In this document: positions 19,122-23,165 of the stretch, piece after piece
Numbering within the stretch: the stretch's first letter is position 1
How the letters are laid out: each line of letters opens with the position of its first letter
From: Nitrososphaeria archaeon
Lineage (GTDB): Archaea > Thermoproteota > Nitrososphaeria > JACIWG01
Length of the DNA stretch: 37,797 nt
Assembly (NCBI GenBank): GCA_029776125.1
Contig: JARVJS010000079.1
Location: 1 to 37,797 of the forward strand
Direction of reading: 5' to 3'
Position numbers and translations under genes: made by a program
The notes under the pieces: model-generated
Told to the model about the DNA's origin: nothing
Seen by the model: only the letters and a program-made list of their open reading frames with translations
Database searches by the model: none

Positions 19122-20303
19122 TTATAGTGCTTTAAAGTTTTCAGTCCACGTGATATAGGCTCTTAACATTTCTTGCGAAACACTAGGACGTCTATACCTT
19201 AAAACTTCCTTGAAATCTTGCATCCTAATCTCACGAGGTTGAGCATTTTTATCTACAGCAGCACCAGATTCAAAAAGTTCCGATACAACCCTAAGTTGCA
19301 CGGACTGACATATGTCACGAATATCACTGCCAGAATAGCCTTCAGTAAGCTTAGCAAGCTGATTCAAGTCAACAGAAGAATCCAGCTTTAAAGGTGCAGT
19401 ATAAAGTTTAAACATTTCAAGTCGAGCCCTAAGATCAGGAAGTGGAACATATATTCTCTTCTGAAAACGTCTCAAAAAGGGTGAATCAAGAGACCAAGGT
19501 TTATTCGTTGCACCTATAACATAAAGTTGTAGAGTTTTACCTTTATCCATTATACCATCCATTTCCTTCAAAAACTGGTTCCTAACTCTAACCTCTCCAC
19601 CGACCTCTTGAGAACGAGTACCCAAAAGGGAGTCTAATTCATCAATAAATATTATTACGGGGCCATTATCGTCCAAAAGCCTTCTAGCATAACTGAAGAG
19701 CTTAGAAACATTCTTTTCCGCCTCACCAAGCCATTTAGACATTATGGAGGCAGCGTCTACAGTTATAAAATAGCCTTCTATCTCACTAGCCGCTGCAGCA
19801 GCCAACATGGTCTTACCACATCCGGGGGGGCCATACAAGAGTATACCTCTAGGCCAACCCAATGGGAATAAGTCAGGCCTTTTCACTGGAAAGATTATGG
19901 ACTCCTTTATAGCCTTCTTTGCATCATCTAATCCTATAACTTCTTCCCACCTAACATTAGGCTTCTCCTTCATAACAAGGTCATCGAACGTTGCCTTTAG
20001 AGTTTCAACTCCCTTTGAAGCCTGAACAGTTTGAGTTACTGGATTATCTGAGCCATCGGATGAAGTGGAACCTCTTGCAGCCTGTAAAGCTTTAACACGC
20101 TCCTGATAGGCTGCAGCACGCTCCAAATACATTTTATTCAGCTTATAGTCTGGATAAAGTTGAGCCAATTTTATCAATGTGGCAATAGCCTTTTGATAGT
20201 ATGTTATGGCAGTAGCATAAGAGCCTTGAGAATCCATTTTAATAGCTTGTGAGGCATAATAGTATGCTGATTCTTCAAGCTCTTTAGCAGCCTGATAACT
20301 CAA
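19122..20303 (-). CDS. cdvC: CdvC: MIT-domain AAA+ ATPase (Vps4-like) of the Cdv/ESCRT division machinery
   Basis: N-terminal MIT-like helices (YYASQAIKMDSQGSYATAITYYQKAI), Walker A GPPGCGKT, Walker B IIFIDELDSL, arginine fingers SPFLRRFQKR. Confidence 0.95.
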   Translation of the reverse strand: MSYQAAKELEESAYYYASQAIKMDSQGSYATAITYYQKAIATLIKLAQLYPDYKLNKMYLERAAAYQERVKALQAARGSTSSDGSDNPVTQTVQASKGVETLKATFDDLVMKEKPNVRWEEVIGLDDAKKAIKESIIFPVKRPDLFPLGWPRGILLYGPPGCGKTMLAAAAASEIEGYFITVDAASIMSKWLGEAEKNVSKLFSYARRLLDDNGPVIIFIDELDSLLGTRSQEVGGEVRVRNQFLKEMDGIMDKGKTLQLYVIGATNKPWSLDSPFLRRFQKRIYVPLPDLRARLEMFKLYTAPLKLDSSVDLNQLAKLTEGYSGSDIRDICQSVQLRVVSELFESGAAVDKNAQPREIRMQDFKEVLRYRRPSVSQEMLRAYITWTENFKAL

Positions 20304-20305
20304 AC

Positions 20306-21142
20306 CTATCCAACCTCCTCGATGTGGATCTTACCAGAGGCCGCAAGCCTAAATATTGATTGCTCAACCTTGTCAACAGGAACACCCAAAGAGGAAGCGA
20401 TTTCAACAACATTATATGAGCCTTTAATTCTAATTTGTTCTAAAACACGATTATCCAACACAGCCTGCTCAGGATTTGGAGGGGGAGCATTTAATAGTGT
20501 AGCCTTAAAAGGTTCCTCCTCGTCATCGCCAGAAGCAAGCAAAGCAATATTCTGTATCCTTTCAAAAGAAGGCTCACCCTGCAAAGATTCTGGAAGAGGC
20601 TCTTCAAGAGAACTTATCTTTTCCTCAACATATCTTTTTGCAGACTCAAGAATTTCTTCACCACCACTAACATCCAATACAATAGAACTGTCTGGAGTAA
20701 TCTGCTGAAGACTTGACATAGTTTCAACAAGAACATCATTAATCTCCTTCATCGTACTTTCAAGCTGAGGCATTATACTGCTTAATTCTTCACCTATCTT
20801 TTTAACAACCTTAAATGCAGAGGAAACCTGCATAATAATGTCGCCAGTATCACATATGCTCTCTAACCTAATAGAAATCTGTGTAAGTGCAAGCTCACTC
20901 ATTGTAACAACCTTAATAACACGTTTTATTTCAGCATGCTCAGTAGCATAAACTTTTGCCCTAACCCTATCCTTAGCTTCCAAAGCCTTAACAGTCAAAT
21001 TAAAAAGCTTATCCTTTCTACTTTCAAGACGCCTCTTAATATTATCAAGCTCCCTCCTATGAAATTCTATACTTCTAATAGATTCAAGAATACGATCTCT
21101 CAGAGGTTTATCTTCATTTACCTTCCAAAACCTCCAACTCAA
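20306..21142 (-). CDS. cdvB: CdvB: ESCRT-III-like protein with C-terminal winged-helix domain (ORF opens at 21154; TTG at 21142 preceded by GGTGAT preferred)
   Basis: Snf7-like helices, Pro-rich MIM2-like NAPPPNPEQAV, C-terminal wH LEQIRIKGSYNVVEIASSLGVPVDKVEQSIFRLAASGKI; next to cdvC. Confidence 0.9.
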   Translation of the reverse strand: MSWRFWKVNEDKPLRDRILESIRSIEFHRRELDNIKRRLESRKDKLFNLTVKALEAKDRVRAKVYATEHAEIKRVIKVVTMSELALTQISIRLESICDTGDIIMQVSSAFKVVKKIGEELSSIMPQLESTMKEINDVLVETMSSLQQITPDSSIVLDVSGGEEILESAKRYVEEKISSLEEPLPESLQGEPSFERIQNIALLASGDDEEEPFKATLLNAPPPNPEQAVLDNRVLEQIRIKGSYNVVEIASSLGVPVDKVEQSIFRLAASGKIHIEEVG

Positions 21143-21152
21143 AACAATCACC

Positions 21153-21217
21153 AAAAAAATTTTTGATGAAGACGGTTACCCAAACCTGGGAGCCCAGGTT
21201 TAAGCAAACCGTCTTCA
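21153..21217 (-). terminator. Nested inverted repeat followed by T7 tract between cdvB2 and cdvB (attenuator/terminator/processing element candidate)
   Basis: Arms 21167-21177/21207-21217 (TGAAGACGGTT/AACCGTCTTCA) enclosing 21182-21190/21193-21201 (AAACCTGGG/CCCAGGTTT); reverse strand then reads ATCAAAAATTTTTTT. Confidence 0.7.
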
Positions 21218-21227
21218 ACCCTCAAAT

Positions 21228-21866
21228 TTAAGTGAAGGCGGATTCTCCTGTTGGAACACCAGTTGGAAGTTCTGGGAATCTTTCTTTCATTCTCTGTTCA
21301 GCTACAGCTGAAGCTTCAGCCAGGATCTTTTCAGCATCTTCATTGGCTGCCTCAAAGTTTAATGTTGTACCACTGACCTGGCCAGCGTCAACTAGTATAC
21401 TGCTCAGTAGACTACTTATTTCGTTAATTTCTCTTTCAGCCTCAGGTAATACACTTATTATTCCAGATTTAACACTCCTAATTACGGCCATTGCAGGAGC
21501 CAATGTTACAACTATGTCTCCAAGTTCTGTTACAGTGTTAAGCCTAAGCACAATCTGTTCTAGAGCAAGCTTTGATGAAGTAACCATCCTAAGCATCTTT
21601 CTAATTTCAGCAAGCTCATTAGCAAACACACTGGCATGTTGAGTATCATGCTTTTGAATTGATGAGACAACCTTGTTAAAGATAGCGGCATCCCTCTCCT
21701 TCAACTTTGTAGCCATTGCATCGAGTCTAGCTATTTGAGTCTGTATAGCACGTATAGCATCTTCAAGCCTTGGCTTTAGTGGACCAGAAGGCCTTATAGC
21801 CTCTCTAACCCTATCACCCATTCCAGGTTTCTGTTCCTTAACCCACTTTTCTTCAAACTTAGACAT
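21228..21866 (-). CDS. Second ESCRT-III-like CdvB paralog lacking winged helix
   Basis: ESCRT-III helices homologous to the downstream cdvB (shared ...EIRKMLRMVTSSKLALEQIVLRLNTVTELGDI-type region); C-terminal MIM2-like RFPELPTGVPTGE. Confidence 0.9.
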   Translation of the reverse strand: MSKFEEKWVKEQKPGMGDRVREAIRPSGPLKPRLEDAIRAIQTQIARLDAMATKLKERDAAIFNKVVSSIQKHDTQHASVFANELAEIRKMLRMVTSSKLALEQIVLRLNTVTELGDIVVTLAPAMAVIRSVKSGIISVLPEAEREINEISSLLSSILVDAGQVSGTTLNFEAANEDAEKILAEASAVAEQRMKERFPELPTGVPTGESAFT

Positions 21867-21915
21867 TTTTTACCACTGGGTCTTAATCTTCAGACATTCT
21901 CCTATTATTTTGTAT

Positions 21916-21959
21916 GTTACTGAAGAAAAAGTAACCTTGGTGACAGGTGATAAGGTTAC
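21916..21959. promoter_or_regulatory. Overlapping dyads in the cdvB2 / TrmB-like regulator divergent intergenic region
   Basis: GTTACT(21916-21921)..AGTAAC(21930-21935) and GTAACCTT(21931-21938)..AAGGTTAC(21952-21959). Confidence 0.65.
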
Positions 21960-23165
21960 ATGATAGGATCAAATGACGAGTATATTTCGTTACAGGAGTT
22001 TGGGTTAAGCGAGTATGAGTCAAAAGTTTACACAACACTCTTAAAAAACGGTAGAATGAAGGTTAAGGATATCTCACTGAAGTCTGGAGTTCCTAGAACA
22101 AAAGCATATGGTGTTGTAAAGTCTTTGTCAGAAAAGGGACTTGTAGAATTTTCAGGAAAAGAGCCACTATACTGTGTACCAGTACCGCCAGAAGAAGTCC
22201 TATCAAAAAGGCTAGAGGATGAAAAGAAGAGGTTTAAGAAGATGGTTTTAGTTTACAAAAAACTTGAGGAGCTAAAAAATGAGACAAAGCTTCCAACAGA
22301 TATTGAAGAAAGAAAGTATACAGTATACAGTATGAGAACATTCCAAAAAAGGTTGAAGGAAATATTAGAAAATACTTCAAAAAACGTTTACGCGTGCCTA
22401 AACTGGTGGGGACTAAACGTACTCTCAGAACACGTAGAGAAAATAAACATTCTTTCAAAGGAAGCGAACGTGAAAATTATTGTAGGATTATATAATGACG
22501 ACAAGATTATAGAAAAATTTGATTCAACAATAGACATTAGAGTCACTGGAAAAAGCATTGACGTAAACATAATATTATTTGATGAGAAAACAACAGTACT
22601 GTTGGAAGAATCTGGAAAAATAACTGAAATAAATAACATGGAAGTATGCAAACTTGCAAAAGAGATTATTATAGAGAAGTATTATAAGAAATCACTTTCA
22701 TGGAAAAAGGCTTATCAGATAATACAATTGGGAGGAGAGGACTTGATAACATTATATTCTGGAGAAGAAAAGGTTTATGAAGCATTTGTTCAAGCAGTCG
22801 CAGAAACAGTATTCGACGAAGAGAAAGTTTATCAGATAGGGGAAAGATTTGTAGAAAACCTTACAATGATGCTTCAGCTAGACCTATTCAACAAGGGATT
22901 CGAGGTACAGCAACCAATAATTTCAGCACTAATTTCAGAAAGCCTTGGAAAAGATTCTACAACAAGATTCGATCAGCTAACAAGACTATACACTCTCGAA
23001 GCACCGATGGCGTCAAAAGGTCTACCGGCAACAGTCTGGTTCTTTGCACTAGCAGGATCGGCAAAAAGAAGTGAAATGACATTTAAGATACTGCAGAACA
23101 CTGGAATACAGGCTGAAGGAAAACATATTATACAGGCGAAGATAGAGAAAAAACCATTAACCTAA
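21960..23165 (+). CDS. TrmB-like transcriptional regulator with extra C-terminal domain of unknown function
   Basis: N-terminal LQEFGLSEYESKVYTTLLKNGRMKVKDISLKSGVPRTKAYGVVKSLSEKGLVE; PLD-like effector region; about 150 aa uncharacterised C-terminus. Confidence 0.8.
   Translation: MIGSNDEYISLQEFGLSEYESKVYTTLLKNGRMKVKDISLKSGVPRTKAYGVVKSLSEKGLVEFSGKEPLYCVPVPPEEVLSKRLEDEKKRFKKMVLVYKKLEELKNETKLPTDIEERKYTVYSMRTFQKRLKEILENTSKNVYACLNWWGLNVLSEHVEKINILSKEANVKIIVGLYNDDKIIEKFDSTIDIRVTGKSIDVNIILFDEKTTVLLEESGKITEINNMEVCKLAKEIIIEKYYKKSLSWKKAYQIIQLGGEDLITLYSGEEKVYEAFVQAVAETVFDEEKVYQIGERFVENLTMMLQLDLFNKGFEVQQPIISALISESLGKDSTTRFDQLTRLYTLEAPMASKGLPATVWFFALAGSAKRSEMTFKILQNTGIQAEGKHIIQAKIEKKPLT

Follow-up and report, generated by a model that had tools for sequence, protein, structure and literature searches.

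A conserved stem-loop and U-tract between two ESCRT-III genes of an archaeal division operon, a candidate partial 3'-end-forming element

Results

A stable nested stem-loop separates cdvB2 from cdvB

In the window, the whole 37.8-kb stretch of DNA analysed here, a cdvB2-type ESCRT-III gene is followed on the same strand by cdvB and cdvC, and the short gap between the two ESCRT-III genes holds a strong nested stem-loop with a run of seven U behind it (Table 1). Our preferred explanation, held tentatively at close to an even chance, is an operon-internal partial 3'-end-forming element of the aCPSF1/U-tract type, where the hairpin would protect the cdvB2 mRNA and read-through would supply cdvB and cdvC. 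The most likely predicted effect of the hairpin and U-run is a larger output of cdvB2 than of the genes behind it.

The arms of the 51-nt stem-loop are exactly those given in an earlier note on this DNA, and both pairs of arms are 100% complementary. RNA folding showed the stretch between the nested arms to be paired as well, mostly through G-U pairs plus C-G, so that the whole forms a single, nearly unbroken stem of about 22 bp closed by a 4-nt loop. The hairpin starts 10 nt past the cdvB2 stop codon TAA (21230-21228); this distance, the U7 tract, the GGTGAT site and the TTG start codon of cdvB (21142-21140) all agree with the same note. The U7 tract lies 7 nt after the 3' end of the hairpin (11 nt in the relative G004). 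The gap from the cdvB2 stop to the cdvB TTG measures about 83-85 nt, and its layout is identical in the five genomes of the family.

A 106-nt segment containing the hairpin folded at -37.8 kcal/mol (z -4.9), with none of 200 shuffles reaching as low an energy, and the cdvB2-cdvB gap alone (83 nt folded) gave a z of about -6.9. Using overlapping 60-nt pieces from both strands of the window, whose energies have a mean of -7.5 and a standard deviation of 3.7, we found the hairpin to be the most stable segment at -35.5 kcal/mol, followed by one at -25.8.

Table 1 Features of the division operon and of the gap between its two ESCRT-III genes.
Feature	Positions	Strand	Description
cdvB2-type gene	21228-21866	-	ESCRT-III, CdvB1/B2 family; upstream of the hairpin
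Nested stem-loop	21167-21217	-	outer 11 bp, bridging G-U/C-G pairs, inner 9 bp, 4-nt loop (fold)
Outer arms	21207-21217 with 21167-21177	-	TGAAGACGGTT/AACCGTCTTCA
Inner arms	21193-21201 with 21182-21190	-	AAACCTGGG/CCCAGGTTT
Weak second stem	21148-21169	-	UCAUCAAAAA/UUUUUGGUGA, 21169-21160 with 21157-21148; overlaps U-tract and Shine-Dalgarno site; same genus only, weak in G004
U7 tract	21153-21159	-	candidate archaeal termination/3'-end-forming signal; invariant in five genomes
GGTGAT	21147-21152	-	Shine-Dalgarno-like site of cdvB; GGTG invariant in five genomes
cdvB	20306-21142	-	ESCRT-III core and C-terminal winged-helix-like end; TTG start
cdvC	19122-20303	-	Vps4-like AAA ATPase; MIT, AAA and Vps4_C domains

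Genes of the operon and their neighbours

Profile and sequence matches uphold the gene identities first proposed from the open reading frames, with the reverse-strand order cdvB2, hairpin, cdvB, cdvC. The protein encoded upstream of the hairpin is nearest to CdvB1/B2 (NF041005, 199 bits, under the curated cut-off of 350). Among solved sequences, the product of the middle gene matches CdvB2 and CdvB, and it reaches the last residues of the CdvB model with 60 bits, under the cut-off of that model. Its C-terminal end, which spans the last part of the CdvB model, appears winged-helix-like; no broken-winged-helix CdvB has been reported from Thaumarchaeota (PMC8970359), and the relatives of the window carry the label Nitrososphaeria.

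Divergently from cdvB2 runs a gene for a TrmB-family regulator (21960-23165, forward strand), which is retained next to cdvB2 in families f1, f4, f5, f6 and f8 and is therefore a candidate regulator of the division operon. A dyad, GTAACCTT...AAGGTTAC (21931-21959), lies between the start of the trmB-like gene and cdvB2; it is nearly kept in the genus and degraded in G004. The cdvB2 leader (21867-21930, GTAACATAYARAATAATA...AGACYCAGTGGTAAAAA) is unusually conserved family-wide and does not carry the strong promoter motif of the lineage. Elsewhere in G002 and G003, a second cdvB2-like gene, 80-82% identical, was found (L108:2506-3141 and L109:2168-2803), representing either a paralogue or bin contamination; no such hairpin accompanies it in these two genomes.

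The stem-loop is conserved beyond its coding surroundings

The family sample comprised five genomes of uncultured archaea (G000-G004), probably all metagenome-assembled, three of them being so titled. A search for the same structure in relatives, suggested in the earlier note, recovered the hairpin in all five genomes, once in each and always in the same place. G000 and G004 agree at 44 of 45 aligned positions of the stem, plus one single-base gap, in an alignment read by eye from which the shortened apex of G004 was left out. At fourfold-degenerate sites, the identity between the same two genomes is 49% for cdvB2 and 31% for cdvB (near saturation). The binomial probability of 44 identities in 45 positions is 5e-13 at an identity of 0.49 and 5e-4 at 80%, the identity of the cdvB2 coding sequence. 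Such near identity, next to fourfold sites of which only 31-49% agree, indicates strong selection on the hairpin, and this selective conservation at a fixed position throughout the family supports the view that the element is functional.

In G004 the apex is shortened and the spacing of the arms is altered by several bases, but the stem remains. The U7 tract is kept there too, although the spacer leading up to it has diverged. In a background of 775 kb of G004, based on naive ORF-based gene calls and with rRNA and tRNA set aside, no other gene-gap hairpin with 14 or more pairs folds at as low an energy as this one (-26.0).

These observations bear on the idea that the structure arose by chance or is neutral, for instance as the remnant of a recent repeat or insertion. 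Its absence from the sister families would agree with such an origin, which we nevertheless regard as extremely improbable, as it is contradicted by the conservation of a single-copy hairpin whose neutral surroundings have largely diverged between G000 and G004. We also rejected a repeat or mobile element, the hairpin being single copy in its own genome and in the relatives. One 21-nt match, in G003:C29, sits in unrelated sequence that reads as coding.

Sequence changes point to pairing on the cdv-sense RNA

Three pair types vary one-sidedly between the genomes, each change leaving the cdv-sense RNA with a G-U or A-U pair. Read from the opposite strand, the G-U forms would be A-C mismatches, so the changes agree with pairing in the cdv-sense RNA. 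The fold is also stronger on this strand than on the antisense strand in four of the four species tested. No pair had changed on both sides in this comparison, which is limited to five closely related sequences. A DNA operator, or a buried promoter for cdvB-cdvC, is very unlikely to account for the element: it would suit the perfect dyads and a gap immediately upstream of cdvB, but the arm spacing shifts by several bases in G004, the arm changes give wobble pairs on the sense RNA only, and our promoter model finds no match within the hairpin.

The sequence of the hairpin, including an internal UGCUU segment, is more conserved than the pairing of the stem requires, a hint that a protein or another RNA may recognise it. 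A binding platform whose protein or small-RNA partner switches read-through, for example through the cell cycle, would explain this invariance; it is still quite improbable, given that the hairpin has no Rfam match, that the conservation comes from five related genomes only and that the partner is hypothetical. We give slightly more room, though still little, to a lineage-specific switch, recognised by protein or RNA, that would vary over the cell cycle how much transcription passes from the cdvB2-type gene into cdvB-cdvC. It too would explain the sequence conservation beyond pairing, and, if true, would mean that the order or dosage of ESCRT-III subunits is controlled at the RNA level. No Rfam family reached its curated gathering score for the hairpin; the microRNA and snoRNA matches were sub-threshold and attributed to chance.

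Sister families share the gene order and T-runs

Beyond the family, the order of divergent trmB-like gene, cdvB2, cdvB and cdvC holds in families f1, f4 and f8. Families f5 and f6 show the same order, with a middle gene that tblastn did not recognise as cdvB. The gap after cdvB2 contains no comparable stem in f4, f5, f6 and f8 (z about +1.8 to -2.0), and T-runs of 5 to 8 are present in it in the same four families. A covariance model, run over 400 genomes of the class, gave convincing scores in the five family genomes only. Six marginal matches (E 0.01-0.07 per genome over the 400 genomes) were discarded, as the flanks examined contained no ESCRT-III, CdvC or TrmB gene. In the f4 genomes (L014, L015, L016 and L018), a TTGT...GACAA...GTATAT-like motif recurs after a T-rich run in the cdvB2-cdvB gap; in this family it may serve cdvB as an operator or promoter.

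Termination signals and promoters of the lineage

Archaeal U-tract terminators do not strictly require a hairpin, and the stem therefore needs a reason of its own, be it protection, pausing or protein binding. In G004, where gene ends face an opposite-strand gene, T6 runs occur in 4-5% of the 20-nt bins lying up to 40 nt past these ends, against 0.47% of bins inside genes. This roughly tenfold density is expected if U-tracts end transcripts in the lineage. T7 is rare in the short same-strand gaps of this genome.

The archaeal termination factor aCPSF1 requires a tract of U4 or longer at the 3' end, its thaumarchaeal orthologue has been reported to behave similarly towards U-tracts, and a single U4-tract gives intermediate termination efficiency with it (PMC8716108). 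The gap studied here lies in a co-directional cluster and contains such a tract, and aCPSF1 (TIGR03675) scores over its cut-off in four of the five genomes (G000, G001, G003 and G004), the search in G002, a genome 77% complete, giving no match over the cut-off. These are the features expected of an operon-internal terminator. Points that count against our preferred explanation include the sequence conservation beyond pairing, the fact that the U7 is a single tract, and its ability, within the genus, to pair with the A5 preceding it.

A BRE/TATA promoter motif, AAAAGCTTTTATAA, was learned from the upstream regions of G004. It has no site inside the hairpin, and no promoter could be recognised in the cdvB2-cdvB gap, so cdvB and cdvC should depend on read-through; a promoter missed in the gap is possible, as this motif also gives low scores to one quarter of the genuine upstream regions. 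A nearby match, AAAAATTTTTTTGG, was dismissed because a transcript from it would begin within cdvB and because G004 lacks it.

The earlier note had proposed a partial terminator or RNA-processing element. Conservation, U-runs, aCPSF1 and a gap in which no promoter could be recognised all fit this proposal. A classic hairpin terminator is a poor description of the element, as its U-tract lies 7-11 nt from the stem.

Discussion

In the mechanism that we favour, RNA polymerase arriving from upstream of cdvB2 would meet the U7 tract, where part of the transcripts would end. aCPSF1 would recognise the U-tract and cleave, and the stem-loop left at the new 3' end would shield the cdvB2 message from 3'-to-5' decay; the stem-loop may add pausing. 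Transcripts that read through would provide a lower-level supply of cdvB and cdvC, with a presumed effect on dosage. A cis-acting RNA element would thus uncouple the first ESCRT-III gene from cdvB-cdvC.

Processing or segmental stability without termination is a less likely alternative, in which a transcript of the entire operon is later cut within the AU-rich stretch, leaving a stable cdvB2 message, with the stem acting as a barrier to decay or as a landmark for an endonuclease. A strong stem right past the cdvB2 stop, followed by an AU-rich stretch, is what it predicts, and the puf operon offers a precedent for segmental mRNA stability (Klug 1987, as cited in PMC8625941). However, a U7 that stays invariant while the G004 spacer diverges is more than generic cleavage in AU-rich RNA calls for, and U-runs mark gene ends in the lineage.

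Translational control is rather unlikely. In this case the stems would hide the cdvB Shine-Dalgarno site, leaving translation low, coupled to ribosomes from cdvB2 or dependent on an opening factor, and within the genus the second stem can indeed pair across that site. This helix is A-U rich, though, and absent from the fold at 60 C; in G004 it amounts to no more than a weak alternative of 4 bp, in contrast to the conserved main stem and U7.

Division by ESCRT-III calls for the ordered assembly and departure of several related subunits. If the 3'-end-forming element acts as we propose, a conserved RNA element between two ESCRT-III genes would put part of subunit control at the level of transcript 3'-end formation. 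The hairpin also offers a small, well-defined system in which to ask whether archaeal termination, or the stability of 3' ends, owes anything to stem-loops. A term search of PMC10017037 found nothing on ESCRT-III stoichiometry.

Several known systems resemble this arrangement in part. Bacterial intrinsic terminators likewise have a G-C-containing stem and then a U-run, which is directly adjacent in them; here a spacer of 7 nt (11 nt in G004) intervenes, for which reason we rejected a terminator of this type, and a terminator scan of the window did not list the hairpin. The intercistronic hairpin of the Rhodobacter puf operon (Klug 1987, cited in PMC8625941) also separates genes whose products the cell needs at unequal levels, but it is bacterial and works through mRNA stability, without the archaeal U7 signal. 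In Pyrococcus furiosus, poly(T) terminators lie behind the first archaellin gene, arlB0 (PMC10665913); there, too, a T-run parts a first, polymer-forming structural gene from the genes downstream, although a term search of the paper's text found no mention of a hairpin, and the machinery and the phylum are different. Operon-internal transcription termination sites (ioTTS) of Methanococcus maripaludis tune the stoichiometry of archaeal operons (PMC10450193), and share with our element a U-rich signal in an operon gap, products that may be needed unevenly and the presence of aCPSF1. Those sites have been described in transporter and ribosomal/RNAP operons (PMC10450193), whereas the candidate element described here sets a strong conserved stem-loop before the U-tract and lies among division genes.
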